Shown in pieces: positions 3,615 through 60,635 of a stretch of DNA of 64,000 nt. Location of the stretch: NCBI RefSeq assembly GCF_010550695.1, contig NZ_JAAGOB010000008.1, positions 62,001 through 126,000 of the forward strand, read 5' to 3'. The translations under genes were made by a program, and so were the position numbers. The notes below the pieces were generated by a model. It did not search any database. It was not told the origin of the DNA and saw only the letters and a list, made by a program, of their open reading frames with translations. Numbering within the stretch: position 1 is the stretch's first letter; each line of letters opens with the position of its first letter. The stretch is from Phytoactinopolyspora alkaliphila (lineage in GTDB: Bacteria; Actinomycetota; Actinomycetes; Jiangellales; Jiangellaceae).

Positions 3615-4347
3615 CCGGCCGCTGTACACGCGGATCGCGGCGTCGCTGAAGAGCCGGATCCTGGCCGGATCGCTCGCCCCCGGTCAGCGTCTGCCCGGGG
3701 AGGAACATCTCGCCCGCACCATGGGCGTCAGCCGCAGCACTGTCCGCCAGGCCATCGCGGTACTGCGCGAGACCGGATACGTGACCAGTCAGCGCGGGTC
3801 CGGCACGTATGTCGCCGCACAGCCGCCCATCGAGCCGCTGTCGCCGCGGTCCGGTCCCGTCTACACCGGGTTCCTCGACGATCTCGACGACGAGGCCACC
3901 GAGGTCGACGAGCGCGGGCGCACCCAGGACAGGATTCCCGCCGACCTCGCCATCGCCTCTGACCTGCGCATACCGGTAGGCACGGAGGTGGTGCGCTACC
4001 GAGCCGTCCGCGCCCGCGCGGGCATCGTCTACGGTTACGCCACGGACATCGTCCCACTGACGGTGGCCGCGATGATCACGCCGGACATCCTGGAGGGCAG
4101 CCCGACCATCGTGGACGCGCTCGCCAACGCCGGCCACCAGGTGGCGGAGAGCCTCCAGCGGGTCGAACCGACCCTCGTGGACGAGGCGACCGCGAGACTC
4201 TGCGGTGTGCGGCCCGGCTCCGCTGCGCTGGCCCTCACCGGTGTGGCGTACGACGACGACCGTCGCCCGATCGATAGCTACACGCTGACCATCGTCCAGG
4301 GCTACCCGATCGGCCTGCACCTGACCCGGGCCAACCAGCCCGATTGA
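3592..4347 (+). CDS. GntR-family transcriptional regulator with UTRA domain
   Basis: 251 residues. The GTG start is preceded by GGAGGA five bases upstream, within the end of add. Residues ~8-75 form the GntR winged helix (LKSRILAGSLAPGQRLPGEE, then SRSTVRQAI and the wing RGSGTYV). Residues ~100-245 are a UTRA effector domain of the HutC subfamily. The 23-bp overlap with the deaminase gene implies co-transcription. The GntR-like dyad at the add start suggests an autoregulated two-gene unit responding to a nucleoside or nucleotide-like ligand; the ligand is inference. Confidence 0.88.
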   Translation: MARPPGPDRPLYTRIAASLKSRILAGSLAPGQRLPGEEHLARTMGVSRSTVRQAIAVLRETGYVTSQRGSGTYVAAQPPIEPLSPRSGPVYTGFLDDLDDEATEVDERGRTQDRIPADLAIASDLRIPVGTEVVRYRAVRARAGIVYGYATDIVPLTVAAMITPDILEGSPTIVDALANAGHQVAESLQRVEPTLVDEATARLCGVRPGSAALALTGVAYDDDRRPIDSYTLTIVQGYPIGLHLTRANQPD

Positions 4348-4374
4348 GCCGCGAAGATACCCGCACCATCCGGC

Positions 4375-4416
4375 GTACCGACATCGTCCGGGTGATCACC
4401 CCGACAATGTCGGTAC
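4375..4416. repeat. 42-bp palindrome, left copy (B1)
   Basis: Arms GTACCGACAT and ATGTCGGTAC flank a symmetrical GTGATCAC core. The whole 42 bp matches the reverse complement of 4819-4860 at 41 of 42 positions. The pair therefore forms long inverted repeats bounding a 486-bp segment that holds one small gene. It also follows the GntR stop closely and could act as a terminator or regulator site. Confidence 0.8.
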
Positions 4417-4453
4417 TCTCCCTGCGGTCCGGCGTCAGCCAGCCCGGCGACGT

Positions 4454-4723
4454 TCAGGCGACGCCCGCCTTGCGGGCAAGCCGTCCGACGTTCACCGTCC
4501 AGCCGACGCCGAACACGTGCGGCTTGACGATGGCGTCGTCGTCAGGCGCCCACATCCGCTCCCGGAGCCGGTCCGTAGTGGGAGGGCGGAAATCGTAGGG
4601 CACCACTCCGCCGAGCTTGCCCTGCCAGGTGCGCTCCTCCGCGGGTTTACGCAGTTCCGAGGCCACGGCTGCGCCGACCGCGGCCACCGCTCCGAGCCCG
4701 ATGATTGTGCTGCTCTTCTTCAT
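4454..4723 (-). CDS. Small membrane-anchored protein, DUF5808-like
   Basis: 89 residues from the ATG encoding MKKSST. An N-terminal hydrophobic segment (residues ~5-22, IIGLGAVAAVGAAVASEL) looks like a membrane anchor or uncleaved signal. The rest is soluble and ends with WAPDDDAIVKPHVFGVGWTV followed by NVGRLARK, which resembles the short DUF5808 signature (FG-GWT-N). Function unknown. The gene lies alone between the two inverted 42-bp palindromes and opposes its neighbours, so it may be cargo of a small non-autonomous element. Confidence 0.6.
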   Translation of the reverse strand: MKKSSTIIGLGAVAAVGAAVASELRKPAEERTWQGKLGGVVPYDFRPPTTDRLRERMWAPDDDAIVKPHVFGVGWTVNVGRLARKAGVA

Positions 4724-4818
4724 GCCCGCACTGTAGGTCGCGGCCCCGCACCGCTGCCAGCACAATCGGTGAACCGGCCGTGCGCTCTTGCGGCTCGGCT
4801 CTCCGCGGCTGCCTGGTG

Positions 4819-55870: not shown

Positions 55871-55908
55871 ACACCATTGGACATCGCTTCGGACGTAAAA
55901 TTGCGATG

Positions 55909-55924
55909 TTTGGGACGTCCCAAA
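55909..55924. promoter_or_regulatory. Perfect 16-bp palindrome upstream of the second AraC-type gene
   Basis: TTTGGGACGTCCCAAA is a fully symmetrical operator-like site. TATGCT (55940-55945) lies 16 bp downstream as the -10, and the ATG follows at 55952, so the mRNA is probably leaderless and the palindrome would cover the -35 region. GGAC half-sites on either side hint at cooperative binding. Confidence 0.55.
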
Positions 55925-55951
55925 CTGGACAGAATCCGATATGCTGTCCGC

Positions 55952-57112
55952 ATGCGTGCCGAGAGTCTCCAGGATGCCGGGCCCGGGAGTCGCGCAGCGT
56001 TTCCGGCCGTCTGTTGCCTTCTGGTCGACGTGGACGGGTTCCTCCCGCGTGCCAGCCGCGCCATGGATGGCTGGGCGGAACGGACCCGGCGCTCACTCAG
56101 CCGCATCATCGCCGGTGAGGTACAGCGGGTAAGGGGAGCACGGGTCGAACATCTCCCTCCGGACGAATGGCTGCTGACTCTTTCCTCCCCCACCGTCGAC
56201 CAGTTGGAGCTGCACGCGGACCAGGTCGCCACGGCGATCCACCGCACGGCGCGCTCCAGCGGCGACATCACGGTCACGGTGGCGGTGGGCCGCGCGGTCA
56301 CCGGCGCGGACGCTGTCCCCGACGCGATCTCGTCCGCGCGCCGGGTGCACCGGTCGAAACTGGCACTCGGACCGGACCGGGTGATCCAGCATGACCGTCG
56401 GGCGCCGCGCGATATCCAGGCACCGCGCGATATCCAGGCACCTCACGACGTCCACCGTGAACTGGCCCGCGCGATCGGCCGCGGCGAATCCGACCGAGCC
56501 ACCCGCCTGCTCTGCGACTGGTTCGACCGCGCGACCGCCTCCGTGGACGGCGACGACGAGCTGGTGCGCCGCTGGCTGCTCGGGCAGGTCCTGGCCACCA
56601 CGGCGACCCTGGACGGCCGTCTCGGCGTGGGCACGGCTTCGGACTGGATGGCCGTCTGCGAGGCGGTCCCGTATCCCGCGCTCGCCGACCTCGCCGACCT
56701 GCACGAGCCGGCCACCGTCGCCACGTGGGTTGAACGCGTGGTCGACGCGCTCGTCGCCCGCCACCGGAGGAGCTCCACCCGCCCGTCCACGCTTGAACTG
56801 GTGCGCCGCCACGTCGACGAGCACTTCACCGACCCGGCACTGCGCCTGAAGACCGTGGCGACCGCGGTGGGAGTGAGCCCTTTCCACATCTCCCACCTGT
56901 TCCGCGCCGAACTGGGCACCACGTTCCGCGACTACGTCACCCAGCGCCGGATCCGGCACGCGCAGCGGCTGCTCCGGCAGACCCGGCTCGGCATGGCTCA
57001 GGTCGCGCGCTGCAGCGGCTTCGGCACCCCGGTCCAGTTGCGCCGGGTCCTGGTCCGCGAGACCGGCGCCACCCCGTCCGCGGTCCGGCAGTCCGTCCGG
57101 GCGCGAAACTGA
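55952..57112 (+). CDS. AraC-family regulator with degenerate GGDEF-like N-terminal domain
   Basis: 386 residues from ATG 55952. Residues ~20-150 resemble a degenerate GGDEF/cyclase fold (CCLLVDVDGFLPRASRAMDG, DEWLLTLSS, ITVTVAVGRAV) without an active GGDEF motif. A tandem 18-base repeat then encodes APRDIQ twice (near residues 150-165). A helical middle follows, then the AraC double HTH at ~275-385 (LRLKTVATAVGVSPFHISHL, LLRQTRLGMAQVARCSGF). It is probably autoregulated from the palindrome upstream. The target genes are unknown; the sugar/amidohydrolase cluster to the right is one possibility. Confidence 0.8.
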   Translation: MRAESLQDAGPGSRAAFPAVCCLLVDVDGFLPRASRAMDGWAERTRRSLSRIIAGEVQRVRGARVEHLPPDEWLLTLSSPTVDQLELHADQVATAIHRTARSSGDITVTVAVGRAVTGADAVPDAISSARRVHRSKLALGPDRVIQHDRRAPRDIQAPRDIQAPHDVHRELARAIGRGESDRATRLLCDWFDRATASVDGDDELVRRWLLGQVLATTATLDGRLGVGTASDWMAVCEAVPYPALADLADLHEPATVATWVERVVDALVARHRRSSTRPSTLELVRRHVDEHFTDPALRLKTVATAVGVSPFHISHLFRAELGTTFRDYVTQRRIRHAQRLLRQTRLGMAQVARCSGFGTPVQLRRVLVRETGATPSAVRQSVRARN

Positions 57113-57138: not shown

Positions 57139-57227
57139 CAACGCTGGAAGGTTCCCGTCAGCAGTGGAAGAGTCCGTGGGCCAGGGGCCATACAAGCTTC
57201 CACCGCTGACGGAACCTTCCACCGTTG
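57139..57227. terminator. Long inverted repeat after the AraC-type gene
   Basis: 57139-57170 (with CTGGAAGGTTCCCGTCAGC) and 57197-57227 (with GCTGACGGAACCTTCCACC) are near-complementary with a few mismatches. The hairpin lies 27 bp after the AraC stop. Before the element at 57245 was inserted it would also have faced the end of the convergent regulator gene, so it may be a bidirectional terminator. Confidence 0.6.
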
Positions 57228-57229
57228 AG

Positions 57230-57244
57230 TCAGCGGGGCTCCAG
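57230..57244. repeat. 15-bp target-site duplication, left copy
   Basis: TCAGCGGGGCTCCAG is identical to 58405-58419. The right copy contains the last codons and stop (read leftward: CTGGAGCCCCGCTGA) of the regulator gene, which identifies the original target. Confidence 0.75.
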
Positions 57245-57256
57245 TGTTATCTCGCA

Positions 57257-57320
57257 GGACATCGGTGACGAATCTGTGTCGGGACATCGGTGACACTTCA
57301 TGTCTCAAGACATCGGTGAC
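57257..57320. repeat. Three direct repeats of the element's end sequence
   Basis: GACATCGGTGAC occurs at about 57258-57269, 57283-57294 and 57309-57320, spaced 25-26 bp. Only the first is at the element's end; the other two are inside. They may be repeated transposase-binding sites or scars of nested insertions. Confidence 0.7.
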
Positions 57321-57477
57321 ACTTGCGGGGATTGGTCGATGTCTGGCACGCGTCACGGACCGTCCGCTCCGCGGCATGCGCGGACGCGTTGCCCTTGCGA
57401 AAACCATTGGTGACCGACTTGCTCCGCTGATGTACTGATGGCCACCGTGAGTCTGCCGCGTGACGGAGGTAGTAGTT

Positions 57478-58233
57478 GTGAGTGGCTATGACGCGCTTGC
57501 CGAGGTGTACGAGTGGCTCATCTCCGATGCAAAGCTGGCTCCGGCCGAGTTCGCTGCGTCGTTCGATGACGTCCTCAGTCTCCTGCCGTCGAACGCTCAC
57601 GTCCTCGATTGTTCGTGCGGGACCGGACAGTTGGCGGTTGGCCTCGCCGGTCTTGGCATGCACGTTGTCGCAACTGACGCCAGCGAAGCGATGGTTCGTC
57701 GGACTGCGGAGTTGTCTGAGGAGTTCAGGGCATCTGTCCGGACAGTGCGGGCGGACTGGCAAGAGCTGCCCGACCGCTTCGACGACGCCACTTTCGACAT
57801 GGTGTTCTGCGTGGGCAACTCGCTGCACCATGCCGTGGGCGCGAGAGGCAGAGTTGTTGCTCTGGAGTCGATGTCACGGCTTCTGCGCCGTGGCGGGCGC
57901 TTGGTACTCACCTCCCGCACGTGGGAACTCGTGAGGGCCAGAGGTTCCCGGCTGGACATCAGTGATCGACTCGTCCGCCGGAACGGTCGCGCTGCCGTCG
58001 TGGTCTACCGCTGGGAGATTGCGCCGCATTGGGAGGAGGAGCACCACATCGAGATTGCGGTCGCGCAAGTTGATGCAGCTGGGTCGGTTCTTGTCCACTC
58101 GGAACTGCTGTCGTGCTGGCCCTACCGATACGACGAACTCGAAGTCGAGTTGCACCGGGTCGGACTCCAGACGGAAATGAGCACGTTCAACCTTGAGGCC
58201 GAGAACTACATGGTGGTGGCGAGCAAGGTATAG
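57478..58233 (+). CDS. Class I SAM-dependent methyltransferase (cargo of the IS481-like element)
   Basis: 251 residues from GTG 57478, with GGAGGT seven bases upstream (GTG 57460 is an alternative). Motif I is HVLDCSCGTGQLAVGLAG, the strand-2 acidic loop VVATDASEAMVRR, motif II region VRTVRADWQELPDRFDDATF, motif III FDMVFCVGNSLHHAVG and post-motif LLRRGGRLVLTSRTW. A complete Rossmann methyltransferase of the glycine/sarcosine-methyltransferase-like group acting on a small molecule; the acceptor is unknown. Codon use is less GC-biased than in neighbouring genes, pointing to recent acquisition. It is the only gene in the element. Confidence 0.82.
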   Translation: MSGYDALAEVYEWLISDAKLAPAEFAASFDDVLSLLPSNAHVLDCSCGTGQLAVGLAGLGMHVVATDASEAMVRRTAELSEEFRASVRTVRADWQELPDRFDDATFDMVFCVGNSLHHAVGARGRVVALESMSRLLRRGGRLVLTSRTWELVRARGSRLDISDRLVRRNGRAAVVVYRWEIAPHWEEEHHIEIAVAQVDAAGSVLVHSELLSCWPYRYDELEVELHRVGLQTEMSTFNLEAENYMVVASKV

Positions 58234-58290
58234 ACAACGGGCTCTCAGTCCGTGGCCGGATCGCGCGGTTGCAACCAGGAGGCTTGCGCC

Positions 58291-58310
58291 CCTCTCATCG
58301 CCATGAGAGG
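58291..58310 (+). terminator. Hairpin downstream of the methyltransferase gene
   Basis: CCTCTCAT (58291-58298), loop CGCC, ATGAGAGG (58303-58310): a perfect 8-bp stem 58 bp after the stop codon and inside the element. Otherwise 58234-58404 contains only the element's right end. Confidence 0.6.
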
Positions 58311-58404
58311 ACGTTCATGCGCGTCCGGACTCTCGTCCGCCAGGGCCGGGGAAGTGTCACCACGAAGTAGCCCCGACGTGTCACTGATGTCCTGAGACAT
58401 GACA

Positions 58405-58419
58405 TCAGCGGGGCTCCAG
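58405..58419. repeat. 15-bp target-site duplication, right copy
   Basis: TCAGCGGGGCTCCAG, identical to 57230-57244. It encodes the last four residues (LEPR) and stop of the leftward regulator gene, so the insertion left that protein intact. Confidence 0.75.
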
Positions 58420-59781
58420 CCGCTGGACGAGCAGCCGGAAACGCTGCCGTGGCCGCCCGCCTCCGGGCGACGGGGCCGGCGGCATCGTCCATGCCAGACC
58501 GGCTGCCACCAGGCTGTTCAGAATGCGCCTCCCGCTGCGCAGCGTGATCGACAGTGCCTCGGCGACTCTCGCGGCGTCCACGATCAGCGGCTCGGGCTCC
58601 GTGTCCGGCAGCGCCATGATGATCCGCCGCAGCAGCTCACGCTCGTGCGAGTACTTGTCGTCGGCGATAACGCGCTCCCGTCGGCGCGACCGGGGCGGCA
58701 GTCCGACCACGGCTCCGTCCGCACCCACCACCTGTGCCGGGTGTCCGGCGTGACTCTGCGCCAGCCCCAGCGCCCGCTGGGCGTTCGCGTCGGCCTCCTG
58801 CACGGTGCGCCCGCTGCCGATGCCGACGAAGGCCCGGAGACCCAGGGCGGCCTGGAGCCGGTCCACGAACGGCGCCGTGTGAAGGTTGTCCGTGAGCTGG
58901 CGAAGCGCCCCCGCCGTGGCGGTGATGCCGAACGTCATGCCCTCGTAGGCGAGCAGCGCCGCGCCGGCGGCTTCCACCTCCTCCAGCAGCAACTGGTGCA
59001 CGGCCAGCCGGGCGCCCTGCAACCGGTAGTTGCTCCAGCCCCAGTGCCCGGAGCCCTCCGGCGAGGTCACGTGGACGGTCATCAGGACCAGTTGAGCTTC
59101 CTCCAGCAGTGACCCGGTCCCCATCAGCGCGCTGGTCACCACCGCGTTTCGCAGGTTGGCCGTGGTCGGCGCCATCCGCACGGCCGGGATCCCCTCCGCC
59201 TCCAGCCTGTTCGCCACCGATTTGACCGTCGTGAACGCCGCCGTCGTCGCGCCCGACCAGTACAGCTCGGCGTGAAACCGGCCGAAACCGTCCACCGACG
59301 CCGGACCGTCGTACGGAGCGATGTGCAGCTCGCTGGAATCGCGGCCGATGTCGGCGTACGCCTCACGTACCTCCGCTACCGAGATGGAGTCGATGCTGAT
59401 TCGTTCCATCTCGATGTCTGGCCGGGCCGTTCCGCGGATCAGCGCCGAGAACAGCGACGTACCGCTGATCGGCACGAACGTCGACGGAATCGGCAGCTGG
59501 TCGGCCGCCAGGTCGTACTGCAGCGGGCCGGTGAACAGGATGATGTCAGCCTGCTCGCTCACAGTGAGTGCCCGCGCGAGCAACTCGGAGTCGGCGTGAT
59601 GGGCCGCTCCGACCAGCCGGACGTTGCCCCCGGCGGCGGTGTCCAGGCTGAGAATGCTCTGCACCACGTCCGGTGGTCCGACGACGCCGATTGTCACCGG
59701 GGCACGGACCTGGGCCAGGTGCTCGCCGGCCGAGGCGGAGCGTGCGGGGAGCTCAGCTGGCGGGGAGGCGTCGTCGTTCAC
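58405..59781 (-). CDS. Transcriptional regulator with GGDEF-like domain and C-terminal winged helix
   Basis: 458 residues from GTG 59781, overlapping the amidohydrolase stop (GTGA); a longer upstream frame was rejected. Residues ~30-230 form an alpha/beta sensor region (VTIGVVGPPDVVQSILSL, ADIILFTGPLQYDLAADQLP). Residues ~230-380 resemble a degenerate GGDEF/GTP-cyclohydrolase-type fold ending in FVGIGSGRTVQEADANAQRA. The C terminus (VAEALSITLRSGRRILNSLV) looks like a DNA-binding winged helix. It lies last in the heparinase/amidohydrolase operon and probably senses the pathway compound. The final codons are duplicated by the neighbouring mobile element without change. Confidence 0.65.
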   Translation of the reverse strand: MNDDASPPAELPARSASAGEHLAQVRAPVTIGVVGPPDVVQSILSLDTAAGGNVRLVGAAHHADSELLARALTVSEQADIILFTGPLQYDLAADQLPIPSTFVPISGTSLFSALIRGTARPDIEMERISIDSISVAEVREAYADIGRDSSELHIAPYDGPASVDGFGRFHAELYWSGATTAAFTTVKSVANRLEAEGIPAVRMAPTTANLRNAVVTSALMGTGSLLEEAQLVLMTVHVTSPEGSGHWGWSNYRLQGARLAVHQLLLEEVEAAGAALLAYEGMTFGITATAGALRQLTDNLHTAPFVDRLQAALGLRAFVGIGSGRTVQEADANAQRALGLAQSHAGHPAQVVGADGAVVGLPPRSRRRERVIADDKYSHERELLRRIIMALPDTEPEPLIVDAARVAEALSITLRSGRRILNSLVAAGLAWTMPPAPSPGGGRPRQRFRLLVQRLEPR

Positions 59782-60635
59782 GGTTGCCAGTGTGCCGGAT
59801 CTTTCTCGAGACGGTCGAGGAGGGCGGCGCCCGAGTGCCCGCCGGCCAGGACGCCCGCCATGGTGCCGCCGAGCACAGCCTCCCGGTCCGCGGGGCCGAG
59901 CTCGGCGAACAGCACCCGGCCCAAGGACATGCGCAGGTCGATGAACGGGAAGTCGGAGCCGAACACCACCTGGGCCGCGCCGACCGCTCGCACCATCTCG
60001 GCGATCGCCCGGCCGTGGTTGTGCGAACCGCACAACTCCAGCAACACCCCCGGATGCCGTCGCGCCAGCTCGATCGCACGACCGAAGGAACTCGGCGCCA
60101 CACCTGAGTGACCGGCCAGGATCCTGGCCCGCGGGTGATCGGTGGCGACCCGGTCGACGTGCGACAAGTCGTCGAACTGCGAACCGGCCCACGTGTGGGT
60201 GAGCACCGGTCGGCCGGTCCGTTCCGCGAACTCCCACACCGGCCGGTAGCGGAGCCCGTCGAGCGGATACTCGTGCAGGTCAGGGTGGAGCTTGACGCCC
60301 ACGAAGGACTGGTGCCCGCTCCACCGCTCCAGCTCCGCTTCCGGATCCTGCCATGGATTGATCACGACGTAGCCGGCGAACCGGGACGGGTGTGCCTCGC
60401 ACAGCGCCGCCGTCTCGGCGTTGCCGGCCTCGGTGTCCAGCTCGACCGCCAGCATGCTCGAGACGATCGCGCCGGAGACACCGCACCGGTCCATCACCCG
60501 CAGCATGGCCTCGCCGCTCGGATCGGCGACGAAGAACCTGTTGTACGGCCCGAGATGGGCATGGGCGTCCAGGATCGGGGCCCCGCTCCAGGGTTCGCGG
60601 CTCAGCACCGATCCGGCAGGGGCACGGCTGTTCAT
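59778..60635 (-). CDS. Amidohydrolase-2 family metal-dependent hydrolase
   Basis: 285 residues from the ATG overlapping the stop of the next amidohydrolase gene (ATGA). The amidohydrolase TIM barrel is seen in ILDAHAHLGPYNRFF (metal HxH), FVGVKLHPDLHEYPLDGLRY, GRPVLTHTWAGSQFDD (metal His), ARILAGHSGV and VVFGSDFPFID (metal Asp). The family includes lactonases and decarboxylases (LigW, ACMSD, YitF-type). In this setting a sugar-lactone or cyclic-intermediate hydrolase is plausible. Operon order is Gfo/Idh, heparinase-like, amidohydrolase, amidohydrolase, regulator. Confidence 0.82.
   Translation of the reverse strand: MNSRAPAGSVLSREPWSGAPILDAHAHLGPYNRFFVADPSGEAMLRVMDRCGVSGAIVSSMLAVELDTEAGNAETAALCEAHPSRFAGYVVINPWQDPEAELERWSGHQSFVGVKLHPDLHEYPLDGLRYRPVWEFAERTGRPVLTHTWAGSQFDDLSHVDRVATDHPRARILAGHSGVAPSSFGRAIELARRHPGVLLELCGSHNHGRAIAEMVRAVGAAQVVFGSDFPFIDLRMSLGRVLFAELGPADREAVLGGTMAGVLAGGHSGAALLDRLEKDPAHWQP

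Follow-up and report, generated by a model that had tools for sequence, protein, structure and literature searches.

The locus described here raises the question of how an intact methyltransferase gene of a soil actinomycete came to lie between insertion sequence (IS) ends with no transposase beside it. It occupies positions 57245-58404 of the window, which is the whole 64,000-nt stretch of DNA that was analysed. The unit is 1160 bp long, has the termini TGT...ACA, and is probably (a probability of about 0.6) an IS481-family mobile insertion cassette (MIC) that was moved by a transposase acting in trans.

The terminal sequences of the unit, TGTTATCTCGCAGGACATCGGTGACG and TGTCATGTCTCAGGACATCAGTGACA, were identical at 21 of 26 positions. 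An exact 15-bp direct repeat, TCAGCGGGGCTCCAG, flanks it, with the left copy at 57230-57244 and the right copy at 58405-58419. Seven pairs of exact 15-mers spaced 300-5000 bp apart were found in the window, and only the TCAGCGGGGCTCCAG pair was bounded by TGT...ACA; no pair bounded in this way occurred in 60 dinucleotide shuffles of the window. The first-pass annotation had delimited the unit by these ends, the 15-bp duplication and the length of 1160 bp, and all of its coordinates were exact. Its description of a pair of inverted ends was right as to the match, but the left end consists of three repeats of 25 to 26 bp and is not a single inverted end.

The right copy of the target-site duplication also comprises the final four codons plus the stop (...LEPR*) of a minus-strand gene, a 610-aa ORF at 58405-60237, which stays complete and marks the insertion target. 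The stop codon was thus preserved, as had been claimed; the designation of this neighbor as a regulator is unproven, because a Pfam search of 58405-60237 gave no match. A regulator of the AraC type is located on the opposite side of the unit, at 55877-57112. Two genomes of the same genus (G002 and G003) have the neighboring gene at 82 to 84% identity across the boundary and the 15-bp site without an insert. The site is present once in each, as TCAGCGGGGTTCCAG in G003 and TCAGCGCGGTTCCAG in G002, and the comparison with empty sites that had been proposed thus found a single copy and not two. The base-by-base alignment of the junction covers the gene side only, because conservation does not extend into the intergenic DNA that lies upstream. 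The complete 1160-bp unit is known from one copy only, and the duplication together with the uninserted site shows that it was inserted. Directly left of the insertion, between convergent genes, the window also contains an imperfect 90-bp palindrome (57139-57227), which is probably a two-way terminator, and a different large hairpin occurs at the equivalent position in G003.

The left end of the unit contains the GACATCGGTGAC motif three times (57258, 57283 and 57309). Such motifs, spaced 25 to 27 bp apart, also end transposase-bearing IS481-type elements that are common in related actinomycetes, and the same repeat array terminates transposase-bearing elements within the family and class of the host. 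The ends were matched in 50 of 197 genomes of one genus rich in these elements (that of G148). When about 80 stretches were surveyed for duplications of 14 to 16 bp, about 36 transposase-bearing units of 1.3 to 1.6 kb were found, of which 21 had exactly duplicated 15-bp targets; these units are not all independent, because several share one genome. An earlier scan that allowed duplications of 12 to 17 bp again gave mostly 15 bp. The top model for the transposases of L112 (198 bits), L022 (220 bits) and L111 (156 bits, scanned from a partial frame) was NF033577, with all three scores below its curated cut-off of 224. The domains rve and rve_3 were detected in L112 and L022, and the leucine zipper LZ_Tnp_IS481 was detected in L022. 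The first-pass annotation had staked its reading on the existence of IS481 transposons with similar ends, and many related genomes have them, with 15-bp duplications.

Two further features of these elements were observed. Five tandem IS481 pairs (L217:4589-7491, L218:3375-6304, L243:4714-7718, L275:3567-6340 and L276:3717-6486), some of them formed by elements of different types, have exactly one copy of a 14- to 16-bp duplication between their members, as would be expected if the second element had used the target of the first and landed next to it. Target duplications were palindromic and alike within one genome in L118, L130, L152 and L155 (G195) and in L194 and L245 to L247 (G435). Over 27 target sites, which are not independent, there were 76 complementary position pairs versus 52 ± 6 in letter shuffles.

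Comparison with the autonomous elements allowed both ends of the unit to be assigned. The left end (57245-57333) corresponds to the transposase-distal (3') end, being 84% identical to that end of L111 (86 bp) and 91% identical to L112 (55 bp). Its three motifs, likewise present in L111, L113 and L120, are presumed to be transposase-binding repeats. The right end (58345-58404) corresponds to the transposase-proximal (5') end of L111 and L112 and lacks the middle motif. It shares 79 to 80% identity over 49 to 55 bp with their inner 5' end and 88 to 96% over the terminal 25 bp, and it has one motif at 58379-58391 and a conserved half-motif at about 58351-58367. One motif short, this end may function poorly. 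The captured cargo lies between the ends on the plus strand, at about 57361-58316 as judged from blastn alignments with 80 named loci, the widest of which spans about 57349-58316, and is 88 to 95% identical to methyltransferase loci elsewhere. About 25 to 30 bases on each side of the cargo fit neither the IS ends nor the cargo. No transposase residue was detectable inside the unit; tblastn against IS481 transposases gave no match, and the methyltransferase gene is the sole ORF within. Since the left and right ends match the opposite ends of an L111/L112-like element and no transposase residue is left, the cargo appears to have replaced the transposase gene in reverse orientation.

A full IS481 element with matching ends, which the first-pass annotation had suggested looking for, is not present in the 5.5-Mb genome of the host (G000). 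Neither a second copy of the unit nor a parental IS481 element was found there, and no matching IS481 transposase was detected; the sole rve match above the cut-off (L009) belongs to a transposase of the IS3 type. In G004, contig edges carry the ends of a multi-copy element that was broken by the assembly. No stray IS481-type ends were found at the contig edges of G000, which argues against a collapsed multi-copy element of that kind. The search also returned no source genome holding both the cassette and its transposase.

The TGT...ACA inverted ends, the 15-bp duplication and the DDE (rve) transposase of the same-ended elements place the unit in the IS481 family as a non-autonomous member. 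It is not an autonomous member, having only the methyltransferase ORF inside, nor a transporter IS, in which a passenger accompanies its own transposase, as no transposase gene lies beside the passenger. IS-type ends around a passenger gene with no transposase are the anatomy of an MIC.

The search for the same kind of ends around different cargo that had been proposed was successful. A second transposase-free cassette with matching ends, 2301 bp long, was found at L282:2755-5055. Its cargo is a divergent gene pair, identified by Pfam as coding for an MFS transporter and a regulator of the DeoR type, and its 15-bp duplication has one mismatch. With this second member, the IS481-family mobile insertion cassettes form a small class. 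Smaller units with such ends were also detected, namely a 417-bp non-autonomous unit with related ends and a duplication (L134), deletion derivatives of 483 bp and 832 to 955 bp that retain transposase fragments (L235, L201 and L114), and a 176-bp candidate unit with a shorter repeat (L125). At L281:4969-7453, such ends enclose a passenger lipoprotein ORF and, next to it, a decayed transposase of the IS481 type; this locus is plausibly an intermediate. Inverted IS481-type ends also enclose cargo ORFs at L227:4634-6024 and L272:4957-6320; the cargo ORFs of these two loci and L281 are lipoprotein or VOC-like. L227 and L272 were not counted as cassettes because they have no duplication, despite their inverted ends and non-transposase ORFs. 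L246 and L247 were rejected as well, since they are IS481 elements into which other transposase genes have intruded.

Judging from this anatomy and from what is known of DDE transposition, the unit may have formed and moved as follows. The methyltransferase gene, accompanied by about 100 bp of its native flanking DNA, would earlier have taken the place of an oppositely oriented transposase gene, so that the cargo was already inside at the time of the move. An intact relative, no longer in the genome, would have supplied an IS481-type transposase in trans, which would have bound the GACATCGGTGAC motif arrays and joined both ends into one complex. The 1160-bp unit would then have moved as a block into the 15-bp target at the 3' end of the neighboring gene, and host repair would have duplicated the target. 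The non-autonomous same-ended derivatives with duplications, including the 417-bp unit and L282, count in favor of such a cassette, as does the separation of its cargo clade from the one formed by the other Jiangellaceae copies; the single known copy, the motif lost from the right end and the lack of a source genome count against it.

The best surviving alternative is that a complete, passenger-bearing IS481 transposon inserted by means of its own transposase, which was later deleted, so that the present unit is what is left of it. The transposase has decayed in several elements of this IS481-type group, so its loss after insertion is possible, and the passenger ORF next to a decayed transposase in L281, the passenger-bearing IS481 elements already known and the missing motif of the right end all fit this course of events. 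However, no transposase fragment is left, only the unassigned bases, about 25 to 30 per side, and the still perfect duplication suggests that there was little time for a clean deletion. This origin is therefore considered unlikely, at around one chance in four. Less probable still is that the original insertion was a short IS481 derivative (MITE), which the methyltransferase gene entered later by unrelated recombination. MITEs with such ends exist, and from species to species the gene nearly always occupies a different site with no IS481 ends around it, L014 included; however, this order of events needs an independent entry exactly into a target of about 150 to 200 bp, and the different transposase-replacing cargo of L282 argues that cassettes form generally. 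That the repeats are unrelated to transposition and arose by chance or as an assembly artefact has nothing for it beyond the single copy and is extremely improbable in view of the shuffles and the same-ended elements with the same duplication length, the uninserted sites already refuting it.

The best-studied cassettes are of the IS231 type, from the Bacillus cereus group, and belong to the IS4 family. Transposase-free MICs are a recognised category, and the unit resembles them in having IS ends, a passenger gene and no transposase (PMC3129680). One MIC of Propionibacterium freudenreichii has the termini of ISPfr11, the IS family being unstated in the available part of that text (PMC2909200). 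Within the IS481 family, ISArsp8 from the Arthrobacter plasmid pA58H2 is similar to the unit in its left inverted repeat (TGTGATCTCTCAGAACATCG...TTTACA) with two tandem similar motifs, its TGT end and its 15-bp direct repeat, but it is 1718 bp long and contains only a transposase, with no cargo (PMC6305408). ISArsp12 and ISPfr21, IS481-family elements with an ArsR regulator and a permease, resemble L282 as actinomycete IS481 elements with regulator and transporter passengers; they differ in keeping the transposase and in having a 6-bp direct repeat and other ends (PMC6305408). TnRErm46 is likewise IS481-driven, carries a methyltransferase as cargo (the 23S rRNA methyltransferase Erm(46)) and can preserve the stop codons of its targets, whereas it is 6.9 kb long, has its own transposase and a 6-bp target (NCTAGN), and its cargo is unrelated (PMC6794481). 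According to the available part of a further source, IS481-family duplications are 2 to 15 bp in ISfinder and about 15 bp in one part of the family. The IS481/IS1202 elements and the eukaryotic IS481EU treated there share TGT...ACA and duplications of 15 to 16 bp with the unit, but they are transposase-bearing elements and non-autonomous families, with no gene cassette mentioned in the available part of the text (PMC10045372).

No IS481 cassette without a transposase was found described in the literature searched, the coverage of which was incomplete. The claim that transposase-free, cargo-bearing relatives of IS481 are rarely described stands to that extent, but it has to be set against the transposase-bearing passenger IS481 elements and the cassettes of other families already published; what is new here is the transposase-free IS481 cassette. 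Such cassettes escape transposase-based annotation, yet they can carry genes between bacteria. That IS481 ends with the tandem motif (GACATCNNTGAC arrays) and a 15-bp footprint can carry unrelated genes provides a sequence handle by which such cassettes can be found.

The cargo gene encodes a class I SAM-dependent methyltransferase (Pfam PF13649/PF08241) on the plus strand at 57478-58233. The GTG at 57478 is the likely start, giving 251 rather than 257 aa; a putative Shine-Dalgarno sequence, GGAGG, is located at 57465-57469 on the same strand, and the annotated start of relatives is at the matching codon. The gene has a GC content of 62.4% versus 68.7% for the window, and its earlier description as the only gene, complete and of lower GC content, was borne out. 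The dN/dS ratios against 84 relatives were 0.19 to 0.51 (median, 0.28), values which indicate purifying selection on the coding sequence. The distant relatives of the protein are glycine N-methyltransferases, MitM and comparable enzymes acting on small molecules. It was modelled with AlphaFold (mean pLDDT of 73, one of five models being far better than the others), and the predicted fold is nearest to small-molecule and peptide methyltransferases, namely an uncharacterised methyltransferase, CypM, CcbJ, CalS10 and glycine sarcosine methyltransferase, at 17 to 24% identity. In the NCBIfam scan the protein was below every cut-off, and the PDB search gave no substrate either. A glycine/sarcosine N-methyltransferase identity was rejected at 60 bits versus an equivalog cut-off of 350, and membership is limited to class I SAM methyltransferases.

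Relatives of this methyltransferase were found in at least 167 stretches of species-level genomes, and the best 80 of these are 85 to 94% identical and represent at least 80 actinomycete species. The gene was present in 14 of 394 sampled genomes of the host's class (about 4%), always as a single copy, some of these copies being only 59 to 62% identical. Its left neighborhoods were of 70 different kinds among 78 named loci and its right ones of 73 among 76, and the shared flanks end at different points from locus to locus (L030 to L109; core of about 4001-4770 in most). Such varied limits of the shared stretch led to the rejection of a fixed-ended transposon as an explanation of the methyltransferase. 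No IS481 ends flanked 84 other methyltransferase loci, and the motif match that recurred at these loci was a chance occurrence of GACATCAGTGA within the gene itself. The left flank shared by the Streptomyces copies contains an ORF, cut to various lengths, that was recognised by eye, without a model, as an IS21-type transposase. The methyltransferase cores of Streptomyces coeruleorubidus and two Nonomuraea species are identical. In the tree, the methyltransferases of L015 (G004) and L054 (Phytoactinopolyspora limicola) are also identical, and the window copy groups with Lentzea-type sequences apart from the other Jiangellaceae copies (clade support for the latter, 100/100), so it was acquired separately from them.

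A broader reading, which we hold only tentatively and at slightly less than even odds, joins two statements. The IS481-type elements with 15-bp duplications would yield a general actinomycete class of transposase-free cassettes, carrying the methyltransferase gene, the MFS and DeoR genes of L282 and possibly the VOC-like and lipoprotein genes of L227 and L272; and the methyltransferase would be an itinerant, selected single-copy gene spreading across families by any vehicle, with breakpoints that differ each time. The wandering gene is more surprising than the cassette, and ordinary horizontal transfer would explain its spread. The cargo poses a testable question, namely which activity is worth repeated single-copy acquisition at new sites in about 4% of sampled actinomycete genomes. 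An IS3-like transposase gene of G001 contains a frameshifted copy of the methyltransferase gene (L014:1501-2373), and a 74% identical relative (H21) is present at MT835530.1:5661-6413, on a 40-kb phage contig that has no annotation and comes from human faecal samples.
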